From: Polytrichum commune
Taxonomy: Eukaryota; Streptophyta; Polytrichopsida; Polytrichales; Polytrichaceae
DNA: 64,000 nt
Direction of reading: 5' to 3'
Assembly: GCA_950295325.1 (NCBI GenBank)
Contig: OX485809.1
Location: forward strand, 7,316,001-7,380,000
The translations under genes and the position numbers were made by a program. Under the pieces are notes generated by a model that did no database searches, was not told the origin of the DNA, and saw only the letters and a list, made by a program, of their open reading frames with translations. This document shows positions 3,990-59,167 of the stretch, one piece after another. Each line of letters begins with the position of its first letter. Within the stretch, counting starts at the first letter, position 1.

Positions 3990-4032
3990 CTCCCTCAAGA
4001 TGATAATGATGATGATGATGATGATGATTCAC
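3990..4032. repeat. (ATG)n trinucleotide microsatellite
   Basis: About eight GAT/ATG units in a row. Confidence 0.85.
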
Positions 4033-4074
4033 ATTCTTGCCAACAGTAGTAGTGTGGGTTTCCGAAGATTGATT

Positions 4075-7874: not shown

Positions 7875-8316
7875 AGGTAGGGGTGGCAATTTCCGTCCAA
7901 ATTTCAGATGCGCCTAGTTGGGATGTTGAAACTATTTTTTTATAAATTTTGAGTGCTCCGTAAAGCAAGTGCAAGAGCAACTATGAAAAAATCAATTTTT
8001 TCCAACATGTTTATGATTTCCTACAAATTTTTAAAGGAAACCTTGTAGAGTGACCAACACTCGCACATTGGGTACGTGGTATATCCACAGGGTGGATTTC
8101 TAAAACCGACCGCTGGCAGCATTAAACCGACCGCTGGCAGCCAATGAAATGTTGGCAGCGCTGTGAACGGTAAAAACACCTTGATAGGTGCTTTTGTAAA
8201 CCCAGGTAAAAGCACCTAGATAGGTGCTTTTGTAAACCCAGGTAAAAGCACCTAGATAGGTGCTTCCGACATAGGGGTTGACTTTAGGACCCGCACGGAA
8301 ATTGCCACCCCTACCT
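7875..8316. mobile_element. TA-flanked MITE (Tc1/mariner-like), copy 1
   Basis: A 442-bp element with inverted ends of about 22 bp. The left end begins AGGTAGGGGTGGCAATTTCC and the right end is its complement. TA flanks both ends at 7873-7874 and 8317-8318. The interior carries two small tandem duplications: one around 'aaaccgaccgctggcagc', the other a unit of about 36 bp containing 'ggtgcttttgtaaaccc'. A copy in the opposite orientation is at 55030-55415. The open frame at 8021-8215 is inside the element and is not a gene. Confidence 0.75.
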
Positions 8317-10217: not shown

Positions 10218-10220
10218 TAA

Positions 10221-11164
10221 CACTACAAGAAAACCAGCCCAATGTGACCGGATGTGACTAAGGGCATATGACTATGTAGTCACCTCAGTCATTGGTTTAG
10301 TCTAAAATCAGTCCTAAGAGGGTCCAGTCATGGTCTAGTCATATACGTAGTCATATTTTTGAGGACCTGGGTGGGAACGTCTACGGGAACGGGACATATG
10401 TTCTCCTGCCCGGTTCCCAGAGTCATGCTATGAGTGCTCACTATGTGTAGTCATGCTAATGTGCTCACTATGTGTAGTCATGCTAATGCTAATGCGTTAT
10501 GTATGTCTTACTGCAGTAAGAGAGTTGGTTTGGGTGACTACATGACTTCCTGTAGTAAATGAACTGACTAATAGTTGTCATATATTTCAATCAGATGATT
10601 TTGAAGTCCTCTAGTCGTTGGCTCCATGGGTGAGTGTTGTGATATAGAAGTAGGTCTATAATCTTCACTTACATAATAGCTCGTCTATTCAACACTACCA
10701 TGTCTGCGCGCAAACATGATCACGTGTCATTTTAGAGGCACCCCATCATAGAAACAGGAACTAAACACACCTTCAAAAATTAGTAAGTAATTGGCTTGGG
10801 CGTCCAGAAATCATGATTCCACTTGGAATATCTTCCCACTTTCTTTTCAGATGCACGACATTGCCGTGTATGCTTAACCAGGCTACAGAATTCCCATGCT
10901 CACAACAAAGCCGTTATTGATCACCTTCCCATACTTTTTTGAGATGCCAAAGTGTTGGCAAAATAACGTAGCCATGTGGACAGTTTTCTTTACTAGATTC
11001 AGTCATGACTGCGATATAACATAGTCACAGACACAATTTCCTTTACTTATATTGGTAATGAACCCCCTTTGTCCATACAACTTTAATTTGTTAAGTGTGC
11101 AATCTCTGTGACTACTCTTTTGCTGTACCAAAATTCTACAGATAGTAGTTGGGCTCCTACAGTC
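10221..11164. repeat. Left subterminal repeat region of the CACTA element
   Basis: Rich in short repeats built on 'tagtcatg', 'gtagtcata' and the unit 'ctcactatgtgtagtcatgc', which appears twice in tandem at about 10437-10495. Such subterminal arrays are the binding sites of TNPA-type proteins in En/Spm. The same motifs recur in inverted orientation in the right subterminal region. No gene is seen. Confidence 0.75.
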
Positions 11165-14100
11165 CTACTGTGGTGATTCATCATTGTAGTCTGCCTCTGT
11201 ATCCTCCATTTGCATAGCAAGCTGCACCTCGTTGCTAGAAAGCTCCCTGGAACTTGATAAAACAGGTGGCATTGCTACGGTATCATCAGCGACATGATGT
11301 GCCATCAATCCCTGAGTTACAACATCGTCGCATAAGCTTAGGCAGTGTAGATCTGGTCTTCCTTCAGCCATGGAAGTCACTCTCACACTTCGTGCCTCTT
11401 TGCGTAGAACTACCTTCCATCCAGGATGTGCCACATCGTCAACAAAGAAGACCTGTTGAGCATGAAGAGGAAACGCAAACGAATCTGATGAGTACGGAAT
11501 GGTACGGTCAATGTTCACGAGAGTGAAACCGTACTCATCTCTTTTCATAGTTGCCCGTGGCCCAATCCACGTGGCGCGGACCCACTTGCAATACAGTAGG
11601 AGTATTTCGAACTTCCCATAGTCAGCCCCAATAATCTCTTCAACCCACCCCACGTACTCCACGTTCGCAAGCCTGTGATTCTTGTCCTTTCTGCTGGAAC
11701 GGCAAGATTGTGAGAATGTTGCAGCTACTCCGCTGTCGCACGTTGACAAGTGGCCCTCTGCTCCTCGCACACGTATATGGTTCCCGTATGCATACATGCT
11801 GCGATACGATTTTGCCTCGCATGAAGGTGGTAGGACAAGGCCAAGAATATCTTCATGGACCTCTGTGCCTGCTGCCACATCCCGTTGCACCGCGATTGGA
11901 AGCCACTCAGAAAACTGCTCATTCCTTGCGATTGCTGGATACTCTGCTCTTCTGCCCCGTGATCGACGACGTATCTCTGCACGCATTCTGTGCCGCGCTT
12001 CCATCTCCAAGTAGTGACGTCTGATTGGAAGCCACAGTGGATGGAATTTTTTTACATAACAAAAACAGCCGGCAGATAAATGTAAATGTCATCAACATCT
12101 AATTCCCTAGTCATGTGTTGCAATATGATGACTGAAATTAGTACACAATAGACCTTTGTTGACTATAGAGTCACATTGTCCCTTCTAGACAGAGTGCATG
12201 ACTAAAACATGTGATGCTTACTATCTGTTAGTCATGTGTTGCAATATGATGACTGGAATTAATACGCAATAGACCTTTGTTGACTATAGAGTCACATTGT
12301 CCCTTCTAGACAGAGTGCATGACTAAAACATGTGATGCTTACTCTCTGTATGACTGTAGAGGCTCAGCATTCGTGAGAACAAACTCGTGAATCCGTGTCC
12401 TCAGCTCTGATGTCAAGAGTCGATATCGACCTGTACCCTCCGCGACCTCACTCTTGGCCCCTACTTCCTCCTCGTCGTCCCAAGTCCTCCTGCGTGTTAG
12501 CTCACAGTCTTGCATGTACTCTGTGCAAAATCCTAACGCCTCCTCTATTGTGTACCCCCTCGCCATGGATCCCTCAGGTTTTGCTCGTTGCCTAACATAG
12601 CCCTTCAGTCTCTTCAGGTACCGCTCAATAGGATACATCCATCGGGTGTGTACGGGACCACATATATCCAACTGCTGCACCAGGTGAATGGGGAGGTGCG
12701 ACATGACATCAAAGAATGAAGGTGGAAAAACCATCTCTAGCATGCATAGAGTCTCAGCTGTGTACTCCAATAACTGTTCCATGGACGAGGGATCTACGGA
12801 TTTTGCGCACAATCGTACAAACACCCGGCTAAGCCGTATTATTGCCACCCGCGTATCCCTGTCTAAGAGAGTGCGCAAACACAAGGGGAGCAATTGTTGC
12901 ATCAAGACATGGTAGTCATGAGATTTCAGCCCCTTCAAGTCCCCATCCGACGCAATGCATTTTGCAAGTTGGCCAGCGTAGTTCGTAGGAGTCTTCAAAT
13001 TGCGGATAATGTCTATGAATTTTGCCTTCTCTTCTTTCGATAGTACATATGGAGCTGTTGGAAGTACGACAGACCCATGTTTCCTTCCTGGAAGAGGGTG
13101 CAGATATGGTCGAATGTTGGCCTCTTTTAAGTCTAGCCGGGCCTTCAAAGTGTCACGGACTCCCCAAATTGTTTTCATCACGTTCTCGCAGATGTTTTTT
13201 TCGCAGTGCATGGGATCCAAAAGATGTCTAATGAGGAGGTCCTGCCAGAAATCCCAGCAAAGCATTCCAGCGTCAGATTTACTCACTTTCGACAAAGACT
13301 CTTAAGCATTCATTGAAAAGATATAGGTCCATATTTTGTTTCATCCATACTGGCAGTCATGGATTTCAGAAATTGCACTATTCACAGTCACTCTTCTTAC
13401 CAACCAGGTTACTAGAGTCAGTCAACAATTATAACTGAACATACTGGAACCAGTGATTGATTTCAAAAATTGCACTATTCACATTCAACCTGCTAACCGT
13501 GTTTGTTACTAGAGTCAGTCAACAATTCTAACTATCAGTTACTGGAACCAGTGATTGATTTCAGAAATTGCACTATTCACATTCAACCAGATAAGCGTGT
13601 TTGTTACTAGATTCAGTCAACAATTCTAAATGTCAGTTACTGGAACCTGTGAATGCGCTAAGTACCTGCCAATACGGAAGCTTGTACAGAGCGGAGAGCC
13701 GCTTCACTCCGGTACGCTGAATGGGGTCGCCTTCTCCTCCACCTCTTCTTCCCTGTGACTCTTGCAGGAAGGACAATCTTTCTTGTGCATAGCCCTTGAT
13801 GTCGCATCCTGTTAGAATTGGAGGGGGAGGTCGGTACTCCTGTTGACCATCAAATGAATGCCTGAGCCTACGATATGGATGCCATCTACTGAGATACCGG
13901 CGGTGACCTAAATATACATTCTTTCTGAGAGCCTTTGACCGCCGAGTTGTAACATCTGGCCCACACTCGGTACACGCTCTATACCCTTTTGTGACTTGGC
14001 CAGATGTGAGTCCGTACGCAGGGAAGTCGTGAATGCACCAAAGAAGTAGAGCCCGTAGTTTAAAATGCTGTCTTGGGGGCTCTTCAGACACATCTATGGC

Positions 14101-15796
14101 TGGTACCCCTTTCCAAAGTTCCAAGAGCTCTTCAATCAATGGAGTAAGGTACACATCGATGTTCTCCGAGGTCACGCTCTCGCGACCTGGAATAAGCAAT
14201 GCAAGCATGATGAAAAATGGCTTTGTCACTAGTCATGCAGACAAATTATAGTAAACCTTCTTACCATGCTCGTTACTAGATGCAGTCAACAATTCTGAGT
14301 GTAGATACTGGAACCGGTGACTGGTTTCAGAAATTGCACTATTCACAGTCAACCTTCTTACCATGCTGGTTACTAGATGCAGTCATCAGTGCTGAGTGTA
14401 AGCAATACCTGGAATAAGCAATGCAAGCATGATGAAAAATGGCTTTGTCACTAGCCATGCAGGCAAATTATAGTTCACCAGAAGGACCGGCCATGTCGAG
14501 TGACTGAGCGACTGGTTTCCGAACGGATTCACACCGTCCAATGCCATCCCCAAGCGTATGTTCCTATGCTCATCTGTAAAGTTGGCATCCAACGAATCAA
14601 TATGCTTCCAGGCCTTCGAGTCGGGGACGCATTCCACGTTAATACCCTCCTTCTTATGATTGGCATGCCATTTGTTAAGTTCCGCCAATCTTTTGCACCG
14701 GTACATGCGCTTCAGACGGGGAATCAACGGAAAGTGGCGTAGGATTTTGGATGGGATTGGGCTGGACTCCGACTTGTATCTCGGGGCGTTGCACTTTGAA
14801 CAGGACTTCGCATCCTGCAACTCCTTCCTGAATAGGCAACATCCATTGCGGCATGCATGAATGTTGTTATAGGACAGTCCCAGCTTCACCACATACTTCC
14901 GGGCTTCATAGTGGGAACGGGGTAGGTAATTGTCGCTTGGAAGGAGAATATGCAGCAGTTGAAGTAGTTCATCAGCAAATGCATTCGATACTCCAAACAC
15001 CGCAAAGCAATTGAGGAGCAGCAGAGTTGCGACCAAGCGACTTGTTGTGGCACCTGCAAAGAGGGGAGTTCGGGCATGCGCAAGTAATTCCTCCATTAAA
15101 TCTGCCGTGCAATCCCCTTCCTCCCCGGGGATTGCGTCGTCCTCCTCCACATCGTCTGTTCTTCTACAATCCTCACGGTCTTCGTCCTCGAGGTTATCGT
15201 ATCTAGAGAGGCACTCCATGATCATTCTTATTGCGTCCATGCCCCCATTGTTGTTGTCCAGCTGATGAGGGCTTTCCCTAACTTCCTCTTCAACAAGGTC
15301 CTGTTCCGCATCCACGAGTCCAGCCTGAACATAGCACACCCCGGAATTAATAGTTGAAAGTATTTTAGCACTGGAACATTACCTGATTGCGTGTCCGATA
15401 TGACTGGATTTAGTGAGAATGCATGACTAGTTTTGGTGGGATGTTACTTATGACAGTCAACCTTGATTAGAATCAGTCATATGTGACTAGACCTAGTCAC
15501 AAATTCTAATAAAAACCAGTAATGTTGGCCATGCCATATTGAACTGTTCTAGTCATATTACAGCTGTTCTCCTAGTAGTTATGTAGACATACCAAAATAG
15601 GCACAGTGAATTGAGGGTCTCTTCCGATGGTTCTGAGATGCTTGCGAATGGTTCCCCTACTGATGCAACGACCTCCCATACAGTTCCTACATGGGCAACG
15701 GTAATGCGTTAGCCCCAATCTATCTGCCTCTCTCTCCTCTAGTTCCCAGAGGTGGAGGTCGCTTGCCCCCGTCGCTCCACGCCTAGCCATTTGCAA
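11165..15796 (-). CDS. TNP2-type CACTA transposase (TNPD-like), five exons
   Basis: Catalytic transposase of the element. Exons on the minus strand are 15796-15593, 15324-14409, 14186-13666, 13241-12343 and 12020-11165. All have GT-AG borders and the phases agree, giving 3,396 nt (about 1,131 residues) without a stop. Exon 1 carries the Transpos_assoc domain (Cys-Pro-Cys-Arg-Asn-Cys cluster). Exons 2-4 carry the Transposase_21/TNP2 core, with DGVNPFG, NYNLPAWL, LLIPG, IHDFPAYG, GHRRYL, LPYWQ and LLDPMHCEKNICENV (family consensus LDVMHIEKN). DUF4218-like sequence follows (LPIHLVQQLDICGPVHTRWM), and exon 5 matches the DUF4216 region (DEYGFTLVN, QVFFVDD). Start: the Met at 15796; a second Met at 15790 is also possible. 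The gene is read toward the left transposon end, divergently from the TNPA-like gene. Confidence 0.92.
12021..12342 (-). repeat. TNP2 intron 4 with 122-bp tandem duplication
   Basis: About 12110-12231 and 12232-12350 are near-identical head-to-tail copies ('agtcatgtgttgcaatatga', 'gacctttgttgactatagag', 'gtcccttctagacagagtgc'). The right-hand copy covers the authentic 5' splice site at 12342-12341, so the left-hand copy carries a second, decoy-like 5' splice-site sequence inside the intron. Confidence 0.8.
13242..13665 (-). repeat. TNP2 intron 3 with about 100-bp tandem repeat units
   Basis: Three units, near 13360-13455, 13456-13556 and 13557-13657, share 'gatttcagaaattgcactat', 'gttactagagtcagtcaaca' and 'actggaaccagtgatt'. 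The same unit recurs in intron 2 (14251-14405). Confidence 0.8.
14187..14408 (-). repeat. TNP2 intron 2 containing a copy of the exon-2 end
   Basis: This 222-bp intron has GT at 14408-14407 and AG at 14188-14187. Its 3' part (14187-14251) is a near-exact copy, with about two differences, of the end of exon 2 (14409-14473). Both copies encode TKPFFIMLALLIPG in the same frame. The remainder consists of about one and a half units of the intron-3 repeat. The AG of the copied 'attccag|gt' serves as the acceptor. Confidence 0.85.
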
Positions 15797-18057
15797 TGTA
15801 AGGCGGTCAATGCCACTTGCTCCTGTTCAGAAAACCACGCAGAATTGAGCGTGGGAACTAAAAACCCTAATCACACTACAATTTCACAACATGGATCTTG
15901 ACTGGTTATGCCAGAAATCTCAGTTTAACCATCAAGTTCACCAAATGACTGCTACCAATATCTAGAATACTAGACTCGCTGCCACACGTACTCCCCCCCC
16001 CCTTCATGTAAGCTTAAAAGAGAACTTCAGACTGGAAGGATTTTGGTGGCAGTCCTTAAAGTCTATATCTGCTTCAGGATCATCCAACTTATGGACGCCC
16101 TAGCTTACAAGACTCACCTAGGTCAGTCATAAGTTTGGTTTTTGTGATTGTACAAAGTCACAATCCTTCTTCATATAGCCAGTTCAGTAGTGAGAAGTTT
16201 GGTTCATGTGACTGACTAATAATTCAGAGTAACAACATCCTCCACAAATTGATATACTATAATAGTTAAATTTGCCAACTATAATAAAATACCAATAGAT
16301 ATGAAGTCTATAAACAACCTATGACACGAGTTCATGAAATCGCGCAGTCAAGTGTCTCAAATGCTTCAACAATTAGGCACGTGCATAAAAATCCCACTGA
16401 AATCAAAAAATATAAATCAAGTCCATTGTCAATGTTAAATGTATTGTTAGTTGCTGAACTCATAGTACTTCAGCCAGTTCAATGACCAACAACTTTTGTA
16501 TGTGGAGAACAACATAGGTATTGCAATTTTATTCAACATATCAAGTCAACTACATATCAAGTCAGACTACATATTCAGCATATCAAGTCAACTACATATC
16601 ATGTCACTGCCGTCAGTTACATGAACCAAACTGCTAACTACTGAACTCTCTATGTGCTGACTTTTTATGTGACTTCGCACTGTCACATAAACCAAAAGTA
16701 TGACTGACCCTGGTCAGATCATCCTTCAGCAAAAAGGAATGAAGAAGGGAGCAAGGGTTGCGACCACATGTTTACAGAATTCGACCCTTGGTTGATTGCT
16801 AGCAGTCATACGATGCAAATATGTATCCATTACTCTTATTCTTTATTCCACTCACCACTAGCTGCCAAGAATCACACATATCATAAATACTCATCAAAAG
16901 CTCACATGTGATGCAACTTCCCACAACTTCCCACAACTTCCCATTCATATTCAATTGAATAGAGTGCTCTTCATGACTTATCATAAATCACCAAGTGTCC
17001 TATGACGTCCTCTCTATCTAGAAGCCCATACTGAATCCAACATAGTAATCACCTATCAACACTCTATATAGTGTTAAGCCAAACAACAGTCTACGGTGAT
17101 CTATCAAATGCAATAATTAAGCGTTCCATGAATATTATTCACTTGAGGCATGGAAGTGAAGTATCCACACTGCACACCTGTGCCCTGTATGTTGAAAGAA
17201 AAGTCCGTAAGGCACCTTCACTGGTTGCTTAAATTTACTTGTATCAAGTGTCTTGCCCACCTGTAATATTAGACAACATTATAAACCATGTATTTGGTGC
17301 AATAAAACTTGCCATGTACTTCTGTTCAACTAATGTATTTACCAGCATCAGATTGGTATCGACCTTGGGAAGACCTTACATTACTGATTATTACTAAGCG
17401 GGGATAATTTCAGGTGCTTTTAAATGTCATCAATGCTATCTAATATAATTCCATAACCCGAATATGGAACTTGGTTCTTGTGATAGCACTCACAACGTTT
17501 CACCTCAAAATAAAGCTTACATGATGTACCAGCAACAATGCATTTTTGAGTACATGACCTCAGCTGCAAGTAACTACTGTATGTATGAGTTCTAAGAAAT
17601 ACGACCCTAAAAGATTTGTATCACAACTACTGGCTCTAGAGTACCCTGAAAATGTGCTCTAGAATTACAACAAAATCATATGCAAATTTTGTGCACTGAC
17701 CTGACCCTAAAAGTGAATCAAGGACACCTCTGCATTTTAATGCATATAAAGGCAATAAAGCTATCCTACAACCAAACTAAGTGTTGAGCAAAAAAACACA
17801 TTCATGTGAAGGTAGTGGGAGGTAAATTCTCACAGAAACAATGATGATGGGTGAGTTGCCAAGCAGCTTTGTTTCCTTAATTTCAACATCAGAAATGTGC
17901 AAAATCTGTTCAAGGATCCAAATATCACTACATTAGATTTTTGATAGAAGGTATACATGTCTAAGCAAAGTCTTCAGGGTTAGTTGTTAATTGAGCAGAT
18001 CTAAAAGAACCACAAAAATATCATATATACAGGTATACAAGACCATTTGAGCTTTAC
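15797..18057. other. CACTA internal spacer between TNP2 and the captured exons
   Basis: AT-rich with no exon recognised. It must hold the TNP2 promoter just right of 15796, but I see no clear TATA box that I would defend. Short 'gtgactgac' and 'agtcat' motifs continue (for example 15405-15560 and 16120-16220). Confidence 0.5.
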
Positions 18058-18162
18058 CTTGTTATCCATGTAGATGCCTTGGCTTTCTAACGCTCTTCTC
18101 TCTGCGCGACATCGTTCTACAACCTCCCTAAAACACTTTTTATTTAAAATGGCCAAATCCCC
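18058..18162 (-). pseudogene. Splice-bounded open segment of unknown origin (captured exon?)
   Basis: A 105-bp, 35-codon open segment has a good acceptor (ttgtgcaccag) before 18162 and a donor (aag|gtaaag) after 18058. Its sequence includes CFREVVERCRAERRALESQG, a charged helical stretch. It lies downstream of the HflX-like exons on the same strand, so it may be a later exon of the same captured gene or of another. I do not recognise it. Confidence 0.35.
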
Positions 18163-18235
18163 CTGGTGCACAATAAGATAACAAATGTGTGTGAGTGGAA
18201 CACAAATATGAGAACAGAAATTCCTAGTCAACACA

Positions 18236-21038
18236 CACCAAAACTTTTTGAATAATTGCTAGACTATTGAATAATTGATTTTCGTCAGGGGGGTCATTTG
18301 GCCAGAACGTACGTGGCTCATCCAGCATGAGTGTGTTGATGTCCTCCGAGGTATCTTCCAGGAGATCCACCTGTGTGAAGTCCATCACCAACTTTGTGTC
18401 AATTATCAAGCTCAACCCCTAAACACTTTTAGCATGTTCATACTAGTTGCGTATTCTCTCTTTACACTGGATGACATGAAATCTTCATCAAACTCCTTTC
18501 AAGTTACTTTTTGTGGGCATCAAAAAGAATAACGTTGCAAGACAACAAGCTATCACTACCCACCAAAAAGTCACATTACAATCTATGTTGATCACAAAGT
18601 TGATGTAGGACAACCTCACTGAAATAACACATATACATGGAAGCAACCTTGATAACCAAAAAGTATACATAGAGCTTGGTTCCAGAGAAGTTGATCGACA
18701 AACAATTCATTTCAACAACATACATGAAACTCCAATTGACTAATCCTGTTCATCTTGATAATAGGTGATGCATAGCAGTTTCATTTCACTATTTGCTACA
18801 AATGAATCACAAGAACGACCTTCCAGTGTTGTATGCAAACAAATTCATTTCCCTCATCATTGTTGATTTGAACTGCCTCATAGTCACGGAGAGGTCACAA
18901 ATTCTCCTGTGTGAGTCATCAATTAGGTGTGGACCATCCATCCTCTCTGGGCAAGAAATCATGGGGTTCCATAATATCAACTCAGAAACATGAAATACCT
19001 TGTTCCAGGCTTCCACCATGCAGGTGTCCAGTTTAGCTTGTGGTACACCAATTTCTCGAAGGACTTTTAACACCACCTCCCGCTGCTCATCCGCATTTGG
19101 GGCACTGCTATCAATAACATGCTGGAAAAGGGGACGGACATATAATTAAGAGAGTTATTTTCTTTTGCAATACTAAATGAAAGTTTTGATCATCACAATA
19201 CAAACAATTGTAAGTTTTGCAGAGAGATATATGTTGCAGACTCACCAACAAAAAATCGGCTTCAACAACCTCTTCTAACGTTGCTTGAAAAGCCTCCACC
19301 AGCTGCAAATAGGGCTTTGAAACATAAGCCAGAAAATATAATGCCACTATAACACTCTTCAGCTGGAGCATACCTCCTCACCTACTTCGGAATACCTAGT
19401 GACCGTTGTCACAATTGACTTTATTTTTACTTCCTCTTTTTTAAAGGTTGTGCTTAATATTAATTCAATATGTTAGACCAAATTAAATATCACTTCAATA
19501 CTTCTTGGGGGTTTTGTAGTAATTGTCACACATCGCATACAAACACACCCCTGGTGCTGACAAAGTTAAGGACTCTGAATCTTGTCAATTTATGTACACC
19601 ATCAAATGCAAATACCATATGAACAAAGAACTACGGTGCATAGTGGTAAGCCAACCAACAAGAATTGCATGAAGACTTTGTAAGTCCGCTGACATGACAT
19701 GCACCAAGAACTGTGTTAACATACCCAAGAATCAAACTAACATGGTGAGGTAGGTCAGATATGAAACCAACTGTGTCGCTTAGCAGTATTTTTTGCCTGC
19801 AATTGCAAGAGGTGACAATCACTTTCTTAGTCCACTTTTGTCTGCTACCACCCAAGTGTCCAAGGCAATGATCTACATCCAGAAACATCGATAAATGCAT
19901 TGATTTCACATGCATGTACTGTTGTAACAGGAATATTTGGGGTCCACGGATTAAGTAAGAAGATGGTTTTGGGGTATGAGGATGATGGGACTTATTACCC
20001 TGAAGGCAAGACCACACTTCGCACACGAGAATCAAGTGTTGCAAATAATCTGCAACACCCTCCACCTCATCAGTGAGGTTCAAGAGTTGCACTTCAATGA
20101 AAAAAGTTGAAAGAAGGTAGAATAACATAAAATATTTCCAATGAAAAACAAAACATAGAGAGGTCCATCAAATCAGTGCCAAAAGATGCTCAGGACTGTA
20201 GTTTAGCATCTGTTATGCATGTCAAATATTAGATGGGTACACACAAGTAAAACGTATAGTTAACTTGAGCATACTCAAAAGCAAAGGCATTTCATCTTAT
20301 ATTGTAGCATGGGGAAACCCATGAACAATACATGGCTAGTGGGGCACTGATGTTAGTAGGGGTTTTTTCTCTATTTGACTTCCTTTATTTGAATCATTTA
20401 GTGTTACTTCATTGTATAGATTCTGAAAAGGAGGCACTAATACTAAGGGCAAGATAGTACCTATCATCAACATAGACATCGCTTTGGGATAATGCAGCCA
20501 CCATAGATGATTTTCCCTGCAAAATAATCCCAAATACATGTGCCCTCAATAAATGGCATGAATCTCCACACTGCTGCTGACTGCACCAACAGGCTCAATG
20601 TCGCCATCACTATACCAGAAGTGTTGCATGTTATTCTAAATTGCAACAAGGTCTACATCTGATACTTCCTGACCACTGTGTGAACTTGACCATGAGTTGG
20701 TTCAAAGAAAACATAACTTCCGAAGGAAATAGTAAATTGAAGCACATTGAATAAGGGTGGATCTCAAAAAATACATCAGCATGTTATGGCCAAGCTATTC
20801 ATGAATACCTTTACATGTGCTAACATCCCTCTGGTTGAACAGTCTGAACCCTCTGGACTCTCTTATTATTAGCACAACCACTCACTGTTCTCAATTAACA
20901 TTGATTTACAGAGAGAAAATAATACCCTCGTGCACTGACCACTTCAGCTTCCCCATCTTGACCAAATCTTAGTCTTCCTCCCTTGCCCATAACACGAACC
21001 AATCGTGTTTTCTGATAGTCTAGAGCAGCAAGTTCAAC
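18236..21038 (-). pseudogene. Captured HflX-type GTPase gene fragment (multi-exon)
   Basis: Minus-strand exons match plant HflX-like GTPases (ribosome-associated TRAFAC GTPases, plastid or mitochondrial). Exon a, 21038 to about 20926: LDYQKTRLVRVMGKGG, then FGQDGEAEVVSARG. Exon b, 20516-20461: P-loop part GKSSMVAALSQSDVYVDDR. Exon c, 19796-19742: LLSDTVGFISDLPHH (G3 motif DTVG). Exon d, 19302-19246: LVEAFQATLEEVVEADFLL. Exon e, 19121-18999: HVIDSSAPN, then VLKVLREIGVPQAKLD, ending AWNK. Exon f, from 18370: VDLLEDTSED, which completes the G4 motif NKVD. Exons c-f join in frame with GT-AG borders. The exons expected to carry GFISGAGETELQLQ, VGYTNAG and LFATxDP are not found, so the copy is incomplete. 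It lies wholly inside the CACTA element: a gene capture (transduplication) with introns retained. Confidence 0.85.
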
Positions 21039-21449
21039 CTGATGCACAAGAATTTCAAGTCATTTAGAGTTGCTCAAAGAACAGGGTCCTAAATCAATGG
21101 ATATAGCCCAACTTGGATTGTAGAACACAAATAGTTCCGGGCACTTGAAACAACTTCAAACGGCTCTCACCATAGCTAAACCCTAAACCCCTAAAGCAGC
21201 CTAGAGAGTAGCAATTAGATCTTCACCTTAATGTGACTAGAATGGATGATAGTTGCGACTTCGTTACAGATCCCTAAACCCTAAAAGCAGCCTACTTACT
21301 GGCGGCGTTCAAACGTAGTGGTGCTACTCTCTGATCTAAGCAGCATTAAGTTCACAAATTGACGCTGGCAACGGCTCTCACCTGATTTTCAAAATGGCGA
21401 TGGCAAGGGCGCTCGAATGCCTCCCACGCCTCAGTGATCCTGCTTGCTA
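21039..21449 (+). promoter_or_regulatory. Duplicated promoter-like region with telo-boxes (copy 1)
   Basis: Contains 'ccctaaacccctaaa' (about 21180) and 'ccctaaaccctaaaa' (about 21272). These are telo-box-like motifs seen in promoters of plant growth and translation genes. From about 21225 it aligns with 23525-23752 upstream of the TNPA-like gene, so it is a second copy of that promoter region. Confidence 0.5.
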
Positions 21450-21700
21450 TGGCGATGGAGACGCCCACGAACGCCGTTGCAGCGCCTTCGGCAACTGAAG
21501 AGGACAACACCAACTCCAAGGACCGGGGTTCGGAAGGATCTGAGGACCAGGCATCGGAGGAAGGGTTTGGGAGAGACGAGGATGCCGAAGTGCCCGAGTA
21601 CGAGAGGCTGCGGCAGGCGAACTTACGGAAGAACGCCCTCAAGCTACAGGAGCTTGGAGTCCCCATTATGGCAGCATCGTTGAAAGAGTCAACAACCACA
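21450..21700 (+). pseudogene. Extra copy of exon 1 of the TNPA-like gene
   Basis: Encodes Met-Ala-Met-Glu-Thr-Pro-Thr-Asn, an acidic stretch, then VPEYERLRQANLRKNALKLQ and ELGVP. It is co-linear with 23753-24000 (METPSNAAEA ... VPEYEQLRQENLRKNALRLQ). The similarity starts upstream of the ATG and ends near 21690, where the frames diverge. It could be an alternative first exon or a relic. The conserved Tyr-Glu-x-Leu-Arg ... Leu-Gly-(Val/Leu)-Pro block is common near the N-terminus of plant transposase-like proteins. Confidence 0.6.
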
Positions 21701-21949
21701 TGCACGACCGAAGCGGCAACAGGAGAGGGGAATCATGCGACCGTGAAGAGCACCCGCCGCGCCGCCGCGATCTCAGAATCCAAAATAGTTAGTTGGACAT
21801 TTGACACAGAGATGGGAGCAGTGATACTGATGGTAGTTGTCAATGACGCTTTTGAGGTCAATGTCAGGATGGCATCAGGCGTTGCCTGCACCCACATGCA
21901 ATACATACTCAAAACTTTGGTTCTTGACCTATGTGCAACCACCTTATAG

Positions 21950-22750
21950 ACCCAGATTCAGATTTTCACAAATATTGCGATGTACACCATCCTGGTACTC
22001 CTCAATGTATGTTATTCGAGATTAGACTTCATCACAACTATGAAAACAAGTACCCACATCTAGTTTTCATAATATTTAACAGGCCAATTAAGACTGACTA
22101 CCATTGCAAGTTATCAAACAAATCAAAACTTATGGACACCAGTCATTGTTGACAGGTAACTAAGGTACGTGAGGCTTACGTGGTCACTCTCCTTCATTGG
22201 ACACCTATACATGGCTGGTATAGGGTTTAGGGTGTAATAGAAAGAATCATCAAATGCTTAAGTAAATCAAGTGCTTGGCAGAAAGAAAGATAGAAACTTT
22301 GAAAGGTAACCAAACTAAGGCAAGTGGGCCTTGTGCGATCACTCTTCTTCGTAGGACACCTATAATGTAACACTCATCTTGTGAAACCATGATTCTGAAA
22401 TGGTAATGTTGTTGTTAGCAATTCCTGACCAGATTAATCTGTTCAATAGCAAAAATTTGGCTGTTGAGGTGGAAGTGCCCATAATATGGCCATGTATCTA
22501 CCTTACCCAAAAGCCAAGCATTCAGAAACAATATCGTTTACAATTTAGTGAGTCACAGTTCAGCCAAGCGGATCCATACACAGATTCAAACATCATCTTC
22601 TACTCATCACAAGGGTAGTGAGGGTATCTGGTGTGGGCTGCTTTCTTATTGCTGCAAATTTGATTGGGAAAGAAATTACTGCTATTACAATGTAAGGATC
22701 CACACATTTAGCCACATTGTCAACTTGGATCCTGGGTTCAGTAAATCACA
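21950..22750. other. Spacer between duplicated exon-1 copies
   Basis: No gene is recognised. It contains direct repeats of about 60 bp ('gtaactaaggtacgtgaggc..tggtcactctcctt..aggacacctata', at about 22155-22215 and 22308-22372). Confidence 0.4.
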
Positions 22751-22758
22751 CTGCACTT

Positions 22759-22902
22759 ACCTCCCTGTGCCGAAGTCCCCAAGTAACCCATCTTCCAACA
22801 TGAAACACTACATGTTTCAGTTTTGAAACTTAAAGTTCTTGGCTTATAATCTCCAACTAGGTCCACTGGCAAACCTAAATATGTCCTGTAGAAGTCTTTA
22901 AC
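22759..22902 (-). pseudogene. Splice-bounded open segment, possible second captured exon
   Basis: A 48-codon minus-strand segment has acceptor 'gtttttgcag' and a perfect donor 'ggag|gtaagt'. It includes VKDFYRTYLGLPVDLVGDYK. The DFYR-x-YLGLP wording is reminiscent of glyoxalase/VOC-fold proteins, but this is weak and I make no functional call. Its strand matches the HflX-like exons and it lies upstream of them. Confidence 0.35.
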
Positions 22903-23524
22903 CTGCAAAAACGCAAGAAAAGGAATGTCAGCATACTCTTGGTGAAAGGAGAAAGCAAACAAATTTGCAGCCTGTAAAAACAACCAGGTCCACCACCAAA
23001 GTCATTTGTGCTTCACATTCACAGTCTGCTGTTAACATATACTGTTAACATACTTCAACCAAACCCTAACTTAAGAGTTCTGGACCTAAATGACAATCAA
23101 ATAAACGCAGTTGACCATCACCCCAGTGGATTGAAATTTTCGAAAACCATAGCTAAACCCAAGGGGTACAAGAAATATTGCAATATGTCATGCTCTTGAT
23201 GAGCAAACTTCCCAGAATAAATGTAGCGTCATTCAATCAATATTAGGGTTTTAGGGAAAATCATCCAGACCTGCACCTCAATCACACTAGAAACCCTAAA
23301 TCCTAAACCCTGGAGTTTGATCAATGTTTAAACATTGTCACTGCATTCAGTCACACGAATCAAGATGCTGACTACTTAACTCGCTATACAATGAGATCTT
23401 GTGACTGACAGTCGACACCTAAACCATTCTTATGACTAACCTCAGTGACGAATCTCTTGAACAACTTGAAATCTCTTGAACAGCTTTGAGCAACAACTGT
23501 AAAGCAGCTTGAGCGACTCACTAA

Positions 23525-23752
23525 CTTAGAATGGATGACAGTTCCAACCCTACCACGCTCGTTACAGATCCCTAAACCCTAACAGCCGGAAAGTTATTGG
23601 CGGCATTTAAGTGTAGTGGAGCTACTCTCAGATATAACAAGCATTAAGTTCAGGGATTGAGGTTGGCAACGGCTCCTACCTGGATTTCAAAATGGCGATG
23701 CCGAGTGTGCTCGAATGCCTCCCACGCCTCACTGCTCCTGCACGCTCGAGCG
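23525..23752 (+). promoter_or_regulatory. Promoter region of the TNPA-like gene with telo-box
   Basis: A telo-box 'ccctaaaccctaac' lies near 23569, about 180 bases before the ATG at 23753. The whole stretch is duplicated upstream (about 21225-21449). Further 'aaaccctaaa' words occur at about 23290 and 24069. No convincing TATA box is assigned. Confidence 0.45.
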
Positions 23753-26700
23753 ATGGAGACGCCCTCGAACGCCGCTGAAGCGCCCTCGGCGAGTGAAGAG
23801 GACGACACCAACTCAGGCCTCCGGGGTTTGGAGCGATCTAAGGAGCAGGTTTTGGAGGAAGGGTTTGGTAACATCGCGGACGCCGAAGTACCTGAGTACG
23901 AGCAGCTGCGGCAGGAGAACTTACGGAAAAACGCCCTTAGGCTACAACAGCTTGGAGTCCCCCTTCTGGCAGCATCCTTGACGGCAACGGCAGCTGCTAA
24001 CACGAGGCAAGCAGCCTTGGTACCCAGCAGTCGAGGTTACCGCAAAAACAACAGTTTAGGGTACTGAAACCCTAAACCCTACCTCCTTCGCCGAAATTGC
24101 CAGCCTCCTCTATTTATTGTCACCAGCTACCCTCATTGACCTTGTTGCGCATCCTTTGGTAACTTAAGAAAATACCCTCACTGACCTTGCTTTCGCCCTC
24201 ACTAACTTAAGCAAATACCCGCTGAGCCCTTGTTTTCGCCACTTGGATCCTTTGAAAGTAAGTTCCCTCACTGACCTTGCTTTCGCCCTCACTAACTTAA
24301 GCAAATACCCGCTGAGAGCTTGTTTTCGCCCCTTGGATCCTTTGAAAGCAAGTACCCTCACTGACCTTGCTTTCGCTGGGGACTAACTTGATGCTTGCTT
24401 GAACTGCAGAGAGAACTGCAACGAGGGGTCGGAGATCGTGCGCCGGAGTTCGCGACTCGGCAAACCGCACCCAAGTTCTGGAATACCGTCGCGGTGTGAA
24501 AGGAGGAAGGAGAAGAGGGTGTTGTCGAAGGAATCGAAGGAGGGCGCTCGGAGCGGGAAGAGCAGCTCCGAGGAATGGCACAGTGAAGAGGAGGTTTCGG
24601 AGAGCGACACTGACATCCTGAATGTTGCTGAGCGTGGACATGGCGATGATGAGGTCTCGCCAGTAGGAGTGGGAAAGCCCCATCGAGGCGTCCAAAATCC
24701 TCAGGTGAGTGTACTAACTTCATATTGGGTTTTTTCCAGATGTGAGTCCTTTCATCTGTGGTGGCACAGTATTAGATTTTCATGCAAGCCATATTATGGT
24801 AAACGAATAGTTTATCTCCGTAGGCTCGATGAGTGCTTGTCATCAGTTTATCAATGGCCATGATTGAGTTCAGTAACATGAACTAAATAGATGACTATCA
24901 ACCATCGTCATTGTTTAGGATGTGTGACTGGTACTAGTCACATGAACTAAAAAGTTGACTGTTTAAAACCGTATGTGTTTCAGATTTGTGACTGGTCGTA
25001 GTCATGTGAACAGGGATAATGAATAATTGTCTGCACACATCTGGATGCTAACATGTTCTTATAGACATCAGAAGATATTATAATTCTCGAGCTTGTCTCC
25101 ATTAAAAAAATGTTTCGTCATCTGTTCAGTCACTTTCAAGGTGGATTTTCAGAAGCCTCACGAGTGTAGAGGGTGGACTGTATTGTCATTGGTCTCGAAT
25201 TCAGTGCCATATTCCCAAACAATCTACCAACCCACTGAAGTAGTACATGCGTAGAGGAAGATGTAGGATGAGAGTATTATTTCCTATCAAACTGTAAACC
25301 AATTTCTGCCATAAACCCTTACTCATAAAATCTTGGTGGCTTAAACATGATGATGAGAACATGAGCTCAGTAAGTGCAATCACACGTGATCAGAATGAAC
25401 TCTGTTATTCAATTTAGGTCTCCATCTCACAAACTAATGCTACTGAATTCCCCTATATTCTACCTCTTGCTGAAGAATTCCATAATTATTGAATGTGGGA
25501 AATAGTGTGAAGCTGAAGTCAATGCCCACAAGCCATAGAGCTTGATGTTGCAACATAGGTAAACATAGAGTATCAGCTATATTTATCAACTATAGTCGTT
25601 GTTAAGACAATGATTATATATGAATTCATTGTAACCCTTCACAATAGAGTTATCCTCTAAGTAAATATGACTTTCTGCCAAGGAGTTCATTGATCTGGAG
25701 CCTTTCTTTCTATCTTTGTAGCTTGACCCCAGTAGTGTAGTGAAAGAGAGATGTCACAGAGAGGCAATTTTCGTCACTTGGAGCTGTGCACTGGCAATCT
25801 GCCATTCGTGTTGGAATGTCCCCTATGCAACCTCGTTCGTATGTTGGAAGAGGATTGATTAAGAGTAGCAGAGCCGAACTGTCTTCAAACCGTCCCAAAT
25901 TCACATGTTGCAACTCAATTTTCATGATGTGTTCTGAATGGTTGGAGTTCGAAGTCTGTGTCTTAATAGTATTATATGCACATTGCCAGGGCGTGTCAAT
26001 GGATTCTGATCAACTGTTAGTTACATATGGGCCGGTCGAGTTTGAGAAATGGCCGGTTCAAGCCTCTGAACTTTAGGAAATTCACTCAACATTTAATGGA
26101 AACTATAATTGATTATATCTAAAACTCAAAAAGAGAACTGAATGATATCTACATGCAATCGGCTGGACTTGGAAACACCTGGATCTCGACCAATTGTGCC
26201 CAACACCTCCCCGAACAGTGGTGGAGATTTATGTCAAGTCAAATCTGGATTTCAAAGGATGGGGCTATGGTGGGAAAGGTTGTAATATCGGGAGCAAATA
26301 TCTTCAGGGGCTAGGGAGTTCAGTATGTAAATTTATTTTTGGAATGGAAGTAAATGCTCGTATCTGGGAGGTGGAGGAGAATCAAGAGCCTGAAACGTTT
26401 TTCCCTACTTTTGGGAGCTTGTCTGGCCTGTTGAAATTGATTCGGTTTTTGGAGGGCCTTTTCTGAAGTGAAAAAAAATATTGTAGATGTCAACAGAGGG
26501 GTTTAATTCCTGATTTTTTTCGCGATGGGTCAAAAGATACCAATTTTGAAAATAGCCATTTAGCTTATGCACTTTTCCAATCAGATTATACATAAATGTA
26601 ACATGAATTATAGGGAGTTTTGAGCTCATACAAATGACCTAGACTGAAAACCAAATATGTGCAAGATATCAATCACAGTTGACTTTTATCTTCTCGTTCC

Positions 26701-29700
26701 TTTTCTAATAGGCTGTACTAAATATAAATTCAATATCATAGACCAAATAAAGTACTATTGCGATTAAGAAACTTGCATCAGACATAATGGAATTTGAGCA
26801 ATTTTAGTGTCTGCAAAAATAAGACAACGGTGTAGCAGCAGCAGCAAAGGAATGCTCAACTGGAGTTACATTGAATGTAGATTATGACTGCATCAGAAGG
26901 AATTTTGTGACTTGTTAGGAGGAAATAGGCAACTAGCTATATTGTATCAAGAGTCAGCCATGTAGTTTCGGGGTGGGTCTGGCTGTCCTTACTGGCTGAA
27001 AGAGAGCAGAATTTTTTCTGGACATGGCTGGGTTGGATTATGGAGGTCATAGATACCAGTGGTAGGATCATCGCTCAGAGACTAAATTAGTGTGGACTGC
27101 TGGCTTGTTGACCTTGTATTTTCTGACTAATGTAAGTTATCTTGCTAGATACATAAGCAGCCCTAGCATATTGTTTTGGGGTCTTCTCGATTCTTGGGAA
27201 TTGTTGTGGTGGGTTGCTTAGGTAGCATCCTTTGAAACATCCTTGAGGTTCGAAGTGCCCGTGCCTCTTGAAATTGGGATTGGTCTCAAGCTAATCGCTT
27301 TAAGTTTTGTCCAGTACATCCCCATCATCGATTTGGGCTGATCTTTGAGTTTTGGTAAGCATTTCCATTCAAGTTTAGAACATCAGATTTCAATTTTTCA
27401 ATCTTAAGAGACAGAGGGATAGCTGTTTAAGTTTCATCAATAGTTCCAATTTTGTTGCAACAATCATAAGCCCAACACTTGAACTGCTTATTGCTTCGAT
27501 TAGCCCAAGACGAATTTCTGCCCTGCAAGCAGATGTTAGAATGAATCAATTTTAGAATGAATCTTGCTTGAGCCAGATTCAGTCATATCGGCACTGATCC
27601 TAGTCACATGAACTAAATAGATGACTAACAAACTTCGTATGCGTTGAGGATTTGTGACTGGTTCTAGTCACATGAACTGAGAGAACGACTAACCTTGACA
27701 TTGAGATTGATGACCTCTGTATGCACTGTGCAGGCCAGAGCTCAGACAACCGAGCCAACTGTTTGGGAGGTGCGCAAGCGAGGTCGTGGAGGTTGTGGAA
27801 TTCCAAAACCCACGTCAACGAGCCTCCGTCCGCCGCAAACAGACCGACCCCAACACGACAAACCCCTTAAGATGTCAGAGGATTCACTAACAGGGGAGCC
27901 CTTCGATTACTGCAATGACGTAGTACCCGAGCTTCCTCGTGTTCAGGGAGGCAACACACCTCCTTCGCGTGGCCGAGGCCTCCCCCGCCACGGCCCCATT
28001 AGCAGCTTGGACCTTCAAATTGCAGAAAAACAACTCCAACTACTGCAATGGAGGCGAGCGATGGAGATGCAGGAGCCTGTGGTGAACTCGTCCACGTATT
28101 CCCCATCGGAGATGACTGAGAGCTTAGGTCAACCCTCATATTCCAGAGACCAAAAGTCCAGACGACGGGTCGCTTTGAAGCAACAACAGGCTCAGGAGGT
28201 CACTTTTCGAGATGCTGGAGGGCCCAGAAAACACCTTGTGGAGGTCGATCTGAGAGGACATCCACAAGGACAGAATCGTCCGCTGTGGCTAACATGTCTT
28301 CGAGGTCATGCGCAGGATATAGATTTCAGCGAAGATAACTACAAGAATCTCAACACTTCGATGCTGCTCGCTGTCAAGGAACGAGTGGACAACACTTTTG
28401 AGTACCATGGGGGCCTTGGCAAGGTGACAGAAGAGGCTTTCCACAGCATATTGAAGGGCCAACTGAAGGTGAAGAGATATCAGTTGAAGAAAAGAATGCA
28501 AGAAGGGAAGGACAAGCCAAAGCACATTCGGCATGACCATTGGGTGAAGTTGTCAAAACTCATCTTGGAGGAGAAAAAACAACAGGAAGCAGAGAAGTTG
28601 CGATACAGCCGAGCCCAAGTGAGGAGGCCATCTTCAGCCGGGCGCAACGAAGAATATGTTCGAGCTCAATTGGTAAGTTTTCAGTCCATTACAACTCCAA
28701 CCTCACAACTTGCAAAACATCCGTATCCACTCTATATTGGAGACTCACATGCAGCATAATATATGATAACTTTCAACCTGGGAATAGAAACAACCTCCTC
28801 TTATGAATGAAGCCTCGTAATATAAGCGATACTCTTTGAGTACTCAATGGCAATTGCCACAATACAACTACCCTATTAGAAATATTTGCAATAGGCAGAT
28901 AAGGTTGAAGATGATCTCAAAGGCTGTACAACTGTTCCAATGCGAAAACCAAGTCATGATGTGGCTAGGTGCAGTCATCAAATTAGAGTATGTGACTGTC
29001 ATCAGTCATCACCAGAGTTTGCGTGACTTTTTTGGGTCATAGAGAATCTAAGATTTTGTAATCATGCAGCACTAACTATATGATGTAAGATCTCTGTGCA
29101 GGCCATTAAGCTGGAGAGAAGCCCAACTAGGGTTGAAATTGAAAGGGAGCTTGCACGCGACAAAGATGCCCCTCGAAGACTCATTCCTAGAAGTGAAACC
29201 TCCCCGAGTAGCCGAGTGTCTGATGCAAAGCCAGAGCAGGACAGTGATTGGCGGAGAGCGATGGAGAAGAACATTGAACGCATCATGCAGCACCTGCAGA
29301 TTCCCGTTGTCACCCCCATGAAGGCAGCAAGTGCAAAAGGCAGCTCCAGCTCAGAGTCCACCGGCACCGACACTTCACGAAAGCCAGATCAGGTCCAAGA
29401 AAGCTTGATGCCACTGCAGGTACAAACATGACTTCATGTGTGTTGTCCAGCTCCTGTTGTTACAGCTCCTGCTTGGGCACTTCTTAAAATCTTGTGCCTT
29501 AGTTCTAGAAGAATTCACCATGCCAAGTTCGTTACTGTTTGTAGTCATTGATATGGAAACAGTGACCAGGCTTTACTAGATGCAGTCATGAACATCAAAT
29601 TCGTGATGGATAATAGTAATGAAGCTAGAATATGTGACTTCTCACAGTCATCAGTTTAATATGTATTACTATCCATTGTCATTGAATTCAAATAAGTGAC

Positions 29701-31031
29701 TGGAATTCACAAGAAGGTGAGGCTTTGTTGAACCCATTTACAAACATTGCTCTTGATCAAAAGCAATGACTGAGTGGATCCTTATACTTTGTAATCAACT
29801 GGGTTTGCAGCAAGTAGGGGAGTGCGAATCGCAGCCGGCAGATCCGGAGAAGGCAGAGGAGATTCCTGCAGTAGGTGACGTGAAAGACTCACATCCGTCG
29901 GGAACTTCGAGCAACCCTACAGGAGGCACTCCGGATTGTGGTACAGTGACCGTGGCAGAGTCAGGAGGACGTGCCCCAATTGTGTACTCAACTCGGAATT
30001 TGAGGGCTTCGAAGCCTGCAAAAGAGGACACTCGCACCCAGAAGAGAATGCGATTGACAGAGGTTGAGAAGCTGAAGAAAGATCACGATGACACAAAGAA
30101 GCAAAGGGCAGTCCGGGGGAGCAAAACTCAACCTGAGAAGAGCAAGGAGGCCAACATTGACAGTCAGCAAAACGCGAAAGGGAAGAGGAAGAGAAACATG
30201 AACGCAGCGGTAAGTGAAGATGTAAGTGCACACAAGCCATGTATTTTCACAGGTTTCTTTTTCTGAAAGCACCTATTCAGTGATTCAATCCCAACTGATC
30301 CATGTTTTGTGTGTGTGTTTTTTTTATAGGTTGTACAAGAAACCGAGGACCCGGATTTAAAGAAGGGTGACCCTGTGATCCTTTCCAAAAACTTGAACGT
30401 ACAGATAAGTGAACATGTAAGTGCCATGTGCCACTTCCTGGAATGTTGTGCCTTAGGTCTTTAGAAATTCAGTATGGCAAGTTCGTGATTGTTTGTAGAC
30501 TTGTAGTATGGAACGAGCGACCAGGCTTGATTAGATTCAGTCATGAAGTTAGAATACGTGACTGATATTAGTAATGACGTTAGCATATGTGTCTTCTCAC
30601 AGTCATAGCATTTGAATAATTCCCATGAGCCTTGGAGATGTACATCGTTGTATGAAAACAGCAATTGAGTCCCAACTGATGCTTGTTTTGTGTTGTTATT
30701 ATTATTATAGGTTGCAGAAGAAGGTGAGGACCCGGAGTTCAAGAAGGGTGACCATGTGAGACTCAAGGGAATTCAAGAAGGGGAGGAGGATAAAGTTGTG
30801 GCACTCGGGAAAGTGCAGAATGTAGCTGGTGCTTCTCTACACGGGAGAACCATAATTGCAGGATGTGTGTCTGTAGAAGTGTTGAAAAGCCTAGATGATG
30901 ACTACAGTTTGTTTGCACCCATAGATCTAGATGATCCACCCGTGACCTTGGTAGGACAAGCAGTAGGGCACTTTATAATGTGGCCCACAGAGTTCATGGA
31001 CATTGATATGTCCTTCTCCCAAGCAGTTTAG
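23753..31031 (+). CDS. TNPA/Transposase_24-like CACTA protein, seven exons
   Basis: Second gene of the element; such proteins bind subterminal repeats and assist TNP2. Exons: 23753-24035, 24412-24704, 27734-28672, 29102-29419, 29811-30221, 30330-30416 and 30711-31031. The last five are phase 0 with clear GT-AG borders; the exon 1/2 junction is the least certain. The model gives about 883 residues with no stop. Exon 1 has VPEYEQLRQENLRKNALRLQ; exon 2 has VRRSSRLGKP. Exon 3 is the Transposase_24 (Ptta/En/Spm) region: RHLVEVDLRG-like start (KHLVEVDLRGHPQG), basic helical part, then the S-x-A ... RPSSAGRNEEYVRAQL signature. Exon 4 has a DWRRAMEKNIERIMQHLQ helix. Exon 5 is Lys/Glu-rich. Exons 6 and 7 both begin VxE..EDP(D/E)(L/F)KKGD. 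Exon 7 ends with a DUF8039-like module (GQAVGHFIMWPTEFM). Confidence 0.88.
24160..24385 (+). repeat. Tandem repeats inside TNPA intron 1
   Basis: A unit of about 96 bp ('ctcactgaccttgctttcgc..actaacttaagcaaataccc..gcttgttttcgcc..ttggatcctttgaaag') occurs about two and a half times. It creates a repetitive minus-strand open frame that I do not regard as a gene. Confidence 0.8.
24705..27733 (+). other. TNPA intron 2 (3.0 kb)
   Basis: Bounded by cag|gtgagt and tgtgcag|gcc. It carries an R2-family fragment (26015-26215) and several palindromic words 'gtgactggt..agtcacatgaact' (24942, 24990, 27600-27685) like those in the subterminal regions. No further exon is recognised; the open frames at 25786-26466 are short and without domains. 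Confidence 0.6.
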
Positions 31032-32186
31032 AGTGATGGAGTTCCAGTTGCAGAGCATCATGTTTCAGCTATGAAATTTTCTCTTTCAATGAAATGTGTT
31101 CAAATCATTTGCATGACCTGACGCAGTGCTCACAACCGCACGGTTGACTTGTAATAGTCTTGATGTCTCATTATCCCACTAATCTGAAACTAAAATCTAT
31201 GACTATGCACCGTAAGAATGGCAGATTCGACTGCATGGCATACGTTTGCACTAAACTAAGGACAATCAAGTCCTAGACAGATGCTTCCGATTTAATATTG
31301 AACTTTGACTCCCAGTAGTGAAAGAAACGAGTATACAAGGACTCCATGCAGTCATCAGATGATATGGGTGACTATGTGTAGTGACGCACATTTGACTTTA
31401 CAGTGTCGTATTCTCTCAGGTGTGTATGATGTAATACAGTCACAATCAAATCACTATGCATAGTGATCAAACCATTGCTATATTCTCTAAACCCTCACTA
31501 TAATTAGTCATGCCCATCTCATGATTTCAGTACTGGAGACCAATATTTCACTACAATTAGTCATAGCATTCAGAAGTCATTTCAGTATTCGTGACTATGT
31601 GTAGTCCAATAGATGCGACTTCAAAGAGTCTTATTATCCCAACTCAATTTATGACGCATTTCAGTCATCATCTCACTACTGTTCGTAGTGATAAAACCAG
31701 TCATGTATTGACTGATACCTCACTACAATTTGTCATATCACCACGAAGCTATTTCAACATTTGTGACTATGGGGTGTCAAATAGATGTGACTTCAAAGAG
31801 TCGTATGCTCCCAACTCAATGTATGACTACAAACAGTCACCATTTTACTACTATGCGTAGTGATGGAACTAGTCATGTATTGACACATACCTCACTACAC
31901 ATAGTCATGCCAAACAGACCCTATTTGCATATAGATGACTACATATAGTCATAGAGGTATGACTATATAGAGTCATATGGTCCAAGTCTCACTGCAGGTC
32001 CCGTTTTGAGGTCCCAAAACACTGTGGGAACGCAACATTGGGAACAAGAAGTGTCCGATATGACCCCTAGTCAGATTGTCCGAAGCGACTAACTCAAAAT
32101 GACTACAAACAGTGCTAGTCACATTTTGGTTTATGCTGTATTGTAGTCATAAAACCTAGTCACATTGGGCTGGTTTTCTTGTAGTG
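31032..32186. repeat. Right subterminal repeat region of the CACTA element
   Basis: Dense short repeats: 'ctcactacacatagtcatgc' (about 31890, complement of the left-end unit), 'tgactacatatagtcata', 'tgactatatagagtcata', and a block 'atgcgacttcaaagagtc' repeated at about 31613 and 31787. Open frames 31591-31948 are produced by these repeats. The region also holds the 3' UTR of the TNPA-like gene. Confidence 0.75.
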
Positions 32187-32189
32187 TAA

Positions 32190-56876: not shown

Positions 56877-57086
56877 GTGATATTTAGTGTCACTTACTAT
56901 TTGGAATTACATGGTGCTAAATCTTTGCACTATTGATGTAAGTCTTACCAAGGAAAGTTGTTAATGTTTGACAATGTCCCAACAACCAATTTGACATTTG
57001 TTGGTAAAATATGATATATATACAATAAACATATATAGCACTACGTAAATCCAAATAGTACATGACACTAAATACAATATTTAGGG
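56877..57086. mobile_element. Palindromic-end MITE, diverged copy
   Basis: Left end partly lost ('gatatttagtgtcacttact'), right end 'cactaaatacaatattt'. The interior matches 38470-38688 ('atttgttggtaaaatatga'). Confidence 0.55.
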
Positions 57087-59140: not shown

Positions 59141-59167
59141 TAGAATCACAATACCATGGATGTCTTA

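Follow-up and report, generated by a model that had tools for sequence, protein, structure and literature searches.

A transposase-carrying CACTA element of Polytrichum commune with host HflX DNA, very probably captured at the DNA level

The window analyzed here is a 64,000-nucleotide stretch of the 408-Mb Polytrichum commune genome (C7:7316001-7380000). On a plastid contig of this assembly, accD lies next to rbcL, an arrangement that suggests a non-seed plant, possibly a moss. It contains a complete CACTA element of the 22-kb class, bounded by perfect TIRs and a TSD on either side (Table 1). CACT ends that match at 16 of 16 positions, lie at least 500 bp apart and have equal 3-bp flanks occur as one pair in the window and in none of 50 mononucleotide shuffles of it, so the boundary reflects more than chance. 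On the minus strand, the element has a predicted transposase gene of the tnp2 type, which is divided among several open pieces. Two of its ORFs match Transposase_21 in Pfam at 5.2e-42 and 5.2e-27, and the N-terminal ORF gives a weak match to Transpos_assoc (PF13963; 8e-4) that lies below the curated cut-off. A second element gene runs divergently on the plus strand, in what we take to be the tnpA position. A reading made earlier from the sequence alone had placed captured HflX exons between two transposase genes. This is half verified: the minus-strand gene carries Transposase_21, DUF4216 and DUF4218, whereas no Pfam family gives a convincing match to the plus-strand ORFs that were tested at 27668-30266. 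By the features tested, apart from the unclassified second gene, the element belongs to the CACTA (En/Spm) group.

Several repeats accompany these genes. Inside the transposase gene, 14187-14232 recurs directly at 14409-14454, 222 bp apart. The exact repeat is 48 bp in all and ends CCAG|GT, so splicing at AG|GT..AG|GT would excise the duplication exactly. Its 46-bp core is also present twice in the sister elements D (C1:4.73 Mb), E (C5:27.72 Mb) and G (C5:24.69 Mb), and the arrangement resembles an intron that arose by tandem duplication. Also within the element, on its plus-strand side, 21261-21560 and 23559-23858 form a 300-bp direct repeat (81% identical) with similar open frames. Outside the element, 6830-8318 and 55028-59639 give long inverted-repeat matches (85-96%) that lie 47-53 kb apart.

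Table 1. Features of the CACTA element and its captured host DNA (window positions).
Feature	Position	Strand	Detail
Complete CACTA element	10221..32186	.	21,966 bp; TIRs and flanking TSD
TIRs	10221-10236 and 32171-32186		16 bp, 16/16, CACTACAAGAAAACCA; begins CACTA
TSD, left copy	10218..10220	.	TAA
TSD, right copy	32187..32189	.	TAA
tnp2-type transposase gene (predicted)	11165..15826	-	Several open pieces; Transposase_21 (PF02992), DUF4218, DUF4216
Captured MSI4/FVE-like WD40 fragment	17022..17278	-	Exon GKTLDTSKFKQPVKVPYGLFFQHTGHR; 91.8% over 257 bp to host C7:1.29 Mb
Captured TIM44 fragment with introns	17284..18251	-	Exons GDLAILNKKC.., ILHISDVEIKETK..; ~99% to host C5:36.60 Mb
HflX/TIM44 filler	18252..18256	-	5 nt; completes CAATTATTCAA, an 11-bp repeat of sequence located 19 bp upstream
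Captured HflX fragment with its introns	18257..21118	-	99.4% to host gene
HflX exon 13, first 114 of 351 nt	18257..18370	-	VDLLEDTSED..; G5 not captured
HflX exon 12	18999..19121	-	HVIDSS..AWNK; G4 first half
HflX exon 11	19246..19302	-	LVEAFQATLEEVVEADFLL
Gap of 306 bp relative to host intron 10	19391..19392	-	3-bp microhomology TAT
HflX exon 10	19742..19796	-	G3 DTVGF; last base G>T private to window copy
HflX exon 9	19999..20049	-	FATLDSRVRSVVLPSG; LFATLDSRVRSVVLPSG; switch I / G2
HflX exon 8	20461..20516	-	GKSSMVAALSQSDVYVDDR; P-loop second half
Deletion junction	20774..20775	-	735 bp of host with exons 6 and 7 gone; 3-bp microhomology GAT
HflX exon 5	20926..21038	-	VELAALDYQKTRL..VVSARG; 113 nt, identical to host
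Second element gene, divergent	27668..30266	+	ORFs 27668-28759 and 29757-30266

An intact HflX gene is found elsewhere in the same genome, at C5:22,087,650-22,093,758 on the minus strand. It has 13 exons with AG/GT borders, a frame open over 574 codons with no internal stop, and a product with all three HflX Pfam domains (PF13167, PF16360 and PF01926). The best PDB match of this product is 7of2_C ('Putative GTP-binding protein 6', E 2.8e-46), presumably a human mitochondrial protein, and the label "organellar" given to it earlier is one of family resemblance. A DNA search of the genome with 17700-21420 (47 matches, with the best 40 of 519 candidates scored) returned the window, three further full-length matches at ~100% and, at C5:22.088-22.092 Mb, an interrupted match that is this host gene.

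The complete C5 gene aligns with the element through exons and introns, with 17 substitutions in 2,862 aligned bases and two gaps of 1 and 3 bp. This comparison confirms that the element contains the HflX exons on its minus strand, in their proper order and with their introns and AG/GT splice borders, and it supports capture as DNA rather than by retroposition. The location proposed by the sequence-only reading (18236-21038) was essentially right, with the bounds now drawn by the parent alignment at 18257-21118. It is next to impossible that the piece is a retrocopy or merely marks an insertion of the element into or next to a complete HflX gene: the complete gene lies on another contig, the fragment recurs in four copies with different TSDs, and the introns are retained. 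Nor do the exons lack HflX similarity, as exons 8-13 match the GTPase domain PF01926 at 2.4e-12; captured exon 5, taken alone, reaches only 0.052 against PF16360.

Other sources of the fragment were considered and rejected. At C4:37.951 Mb, the match is confined to 164 bp around HflX exon 10 (97%; C4:37947001-37956000, local 4009-4172). Nothing else in the 9 kb read there matches the host HflX gene, and a ~70% related transposase lies ~4.5 kb away. At one base, this separate copy agrees with the element and not with the host gene, and it is possibly a second, independent capture. The HflX-type gene at C2:51.556 Mb is a different one and does not match the element at the DNA level. Protein searches had seemed to find element copies only, which suggested an element from another species whose parent genes are missing here; the full HflX gene on C5 and a full TIM44 gene at C5:36.60 Mb exclude this.

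The fragment holds HflX exons 5, 8-12 and part of 13, with the introns between them. Exon 6, which encodes GAGETELQLQ, is gone, as had been noted before, but so is exon 7, which ends in GYTNA, the first half of the P-loop. With exon 7 deleted, only the GKS half of G1 is left, in exon 8. The switch I exon had been thought absent; it is exon 9, and it is present at 20049-19999. Six consecutive exons (8-13, the last incomplete) rather than four keep the frame and splice to 152 codons, while joining exon 5 to exon 8 produces a frameshift. Past the exon 13 junction, a stop follows after 10 further codons. Compared with an HflX/GTPBP6 protein, which has N and M domains and complete G1-G5, the fragment offers a partial GTPase domain with half of G1 and no G5.

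Because G1 is halved, G5 is absent and exon 5 does not continue in frame into exon 8, we infer from the missing motifs that the captured fragment cannot be a working GTPase. That the exons nevertheless serve as a working or domesticated gene seems highly improbable. Their kept splice borders and the 152 in-frame codons would suit such a gene, and there is precedent in Tgm-Express1 of soybean, whose captured fragments are described as spliced into chimeric transcripts (PMC1947982). Against this stand the incomplete G1, the lost G5, the frameshift between exons 5 and 8, the stop 10 codons past the exon 13 junction and a change private to the window copy at the last base of exon 10.

Few differences separate the captured exons from those of the host. 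Three fall in 569 exonic bases (one nonsynonymous, Q>H at 19742, and two synonymous, at 19248 and 18274) and 14 in 2,293 intronic bases, with exon 11 counted as exonic. Because the exonic differences number only three, of which those at 19742 and 19248 occur in the window copy alone, dN/dS is uninformative here. Setting the two private changes aside leaves 15 founder differences, which do not distinguish exons from introns (1/569 vs 14/2293, P 0.33). The 306-bp difference in intron 10 is unpolarised without an outgroup. Within a captured intron, 18411-18589 is a short dispersed repeat: among the matches scored, more than 20 other places match it at 81-86%, and it is present in the host HflX intron as well.

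The element carries older cargo beside HflX. The HflX, TIM44 and MSI4-like pieces adjoin one another, all on the minus strand, with the latter two downstream of HflX. The TIM44 piece differs from the host gene at 10 of 972 aligned bases, and the host gene extends beyond both ends of the captured part. Both names were first given by eye; Pfam supports Tim44 in the host gene (4e-39 for the spliced domain) and only WD40 in the other. A search of the genome with the Tim44 Pfam family at E 10 returned nothing, which reflects missed split exons and not absence. A longer MSI4-like piece, in sister element K (C4:29.45 Mb), matches the host gene at C7:1.29 Mb at 90.4% over 1,316 bp.

Further short pieces lie at 21771-27146 (65-529 bp aligned, 78-95%), each matching few other loci among the best 40 of 1,075 candidates. 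Several neighboring pieces overlap by 1-7 bp, and some of the matches fall beside recognizable genes, among them what we take to be the 3' end of a KH-type gene at C2:39.04 Mb and the 5' end of a PAM2-type gene at C1:27.49 Mb. These pieces are probably more captures.

Sister elements provide an order for the three main captures. HflX exons occur in four elements and the host gene (exon search, 33 of 33 candidates scored), TIM44 exons in six elements and MSI4-like exons in ten, in addition to their host genes (43 of 43 candidates scored). The sets nest: the four lie within the six, and the six within the ten. In sisters D and E, further TIM44 exons occupy part of the place that HflX takes in the window, and the 7 kb read of element K contain the longer MSI4-like piece and no match to the TIM44 host stretch. 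This pattern suggests successive overwriting, in which a TIM44 capture first took over the upstream part of an MSI4-like capture and later lost its own upstream part to HflX. Divergence from the hosts fails to separate the TIM44 and HflX layers (10/972 vs 15/2862, P 0.11), so the order is taken from the nesting.

The wider family is larger. At least 22 elements have transposase DNA at least 89% identical to that of the window element (a lower bound, with the best 40 of 235 candidates scored), and a 746-bp fragment lies at C5:8.49 Mb. Four of these elements carry HflX, which answers in the negative whether all family members share the fragment. A comparison in steps of 500 bp shows the window element to be a mosaic: its left part is nearer to D than to E, its MSI4-like step is nearest to K, and its transposase is nearest to G in 9 of 11 steps. 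The left half was compared with D and E alone because G and K were fetched in part. A further element, at C1:7.97-7.99 Mb, contains the middle part of the window element at 98%.

The junctions themselves point to how the host DNA was acquired. The upstream joint of the HflX piece has ATCCAA in common between D and the host gene, and the two internal HflX joints have GAT and TAT. A deletion joint between the TIM44 and MSI4-like pieces of the window element has TA, and two TIM44 joints in D have AAGTT and CAA. Microhomology therefore sums to 22 over six junctions (2-6 bp each), which random joins would reach with P ~2e-6 at a match probability of 0.27, or 5.5e-7 and 1.5e-5 at 0.25 and 0.30. These six are the resolvable junctions rather than a census, and the HflX/TIM44 joint is not plain microhomology but filler. 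Together, the junction microhomology, the templated filler and the mosaic favor repair in which the template switched between elements of the family and host genes.

Capture probably proceeded as follows. A break inside the element, such as the gap left by excision, would undergo repair, and the copying strand, initially on a sister element, would jump to the host HflX gene at short microhomologies. It would then skip within that gene and switch back to a sister element, as in abortive gap repair or template switching. The capture is reconstructed rather than seen, with gap repair as its likely setting. We nevertheless consider it very probable that the HflX piece is cargo, copied at the DNA level from the host gene by a transposase-carrying CACTA element through template-switching repair, and not a working GTPase.

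A different route has been proposed for Pack-CACTA elements of Arabidopsis, in which two elements flank host DNA, lose their inner ends and form a hybrid that carries the stretch between them (PMC13317346). The mosaic of family members in the window element would be compatible with such a hybrid. However, this route yields one contiguous chromosomal stretch, and the window element holds pieces of three host genes, from two distant C5 loci and one on C7. It also has internal deletions and templated filler, and the elements keep both outer halves. We therefore regard hybrid formation as improbable and template-switching repair as the better account of the cargo.

After the capture, the element appears to have spread. 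Four full-length copies carrying HflX (21,952-21,967 bp) each have their own matching 3-bp TSD on both sides; read along the HflX gene, these are TTA, TAG, GGG and TAA. They differ pairwise by 13-19 substitutions (0.06-0.09%), and in ungapped columns they have 32 private sites (9, 9, 4 and 10) and no shared ones, as in a star-like burst. Transposition of the element is suggested by this near identity. C>T or G>A changes make up 25 of the 32 private sites, and 20 of those 25 fall at CG or CHG, against 29% expected (P 2e-7). C>T change at CG and CHG is what methylated DNA undergoes over time, and the copies are thus probably methylated. Among the unpolarised founder differences from the host, 6 of 15 are of the C>T type, compared with 25 of 32 later (P 0.02). 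Because the founder differences are not clearly dominated by C>T, methylation is supported for the period after amplification only.

As DNA, the cargo is a passenger, but the sequence it shares with the host could matter. If the host HflX gene is affected, this would be through shared small RNAs or chimeric transcripts. The element has 2,403 24-mers in common with a 13.8-kb host stretch around HflX, 709 with that of TIM44 and 63 with that of the MSI4-like gene; 404 also occur in the spliced coding sequence of host HflX (1,702 24-mer positions). These matches, together with the methylation-type mutation footprint on the copies, would fit small RNAs from the element that silence or tune the host HflX gene in trans. 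We think this unlikely: the reading frame of the host gene is uninterrupted over its 574 codons, and shared sequence is not silencing. Nonetheless, cross-silencing could be tested directly through the 404 coding 24-mers that the element has in common with a single host HflX gene.

Transposon pick-up of host genes has mostly been inferred from end products. In this genome, the intact donor, sisters without the capture, the junctions and four young copies together make the process readable step by step. A broader and more speculative proposal, which we hold as a possibility well short of an even chance, is that the region just upstream of the transposase gene is a recurrent capture port. There, MSI4-like, TIM44 and HflX DNA would have overwritten one another in turn and in the same orientation by template switching, one family would form an ordered stack of host captures, and the host HflX gene would be exposed to element-directed methylation or small RNAs.

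Host-gene capture by CACTA elements is already known. A search of the available literature for CACTA with HflX returned one unrelated paper, and a table in PMC9033089 names CACTA examples from flowering plants. Pack-CACTA elements are already in print, and the present element resembles them in its CACTA-type ends and in captured coding DNA mobilized with the element (PMC8903248, PMC13317346): host coding DNA from HflX, TIM44 and the MSI4-like gene lies between its TIRs, and the host parents were found. Pack-TYPE elements are defined as non-autonomous (PMC8903248), whereas this element has a predicted transposase gene, and so we do not file it as a Pack-CACTA. Soybean Tgm-Express1, a CACTA element with five host gene fragments, is similar in that CACTA ends surround several unrelated host fragments with exons and introns (PMC1947982). 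It measures 5.7 kb, however, and the present element is 22 kb long, with a tnp2 transposase gene and four near-identical copies. CACTA elements of Chenopodium likewise contain captured fragments, located upstream of their first ORF, with the mechanism of Rubin and Levy cited for them (PMC8978399). The fragments described there include 80 bp of AP2, while the parents and sisters present in this genome put three captures in order. Compared with these systems, the layered and complete history of capture in P. commune is unusually clean.
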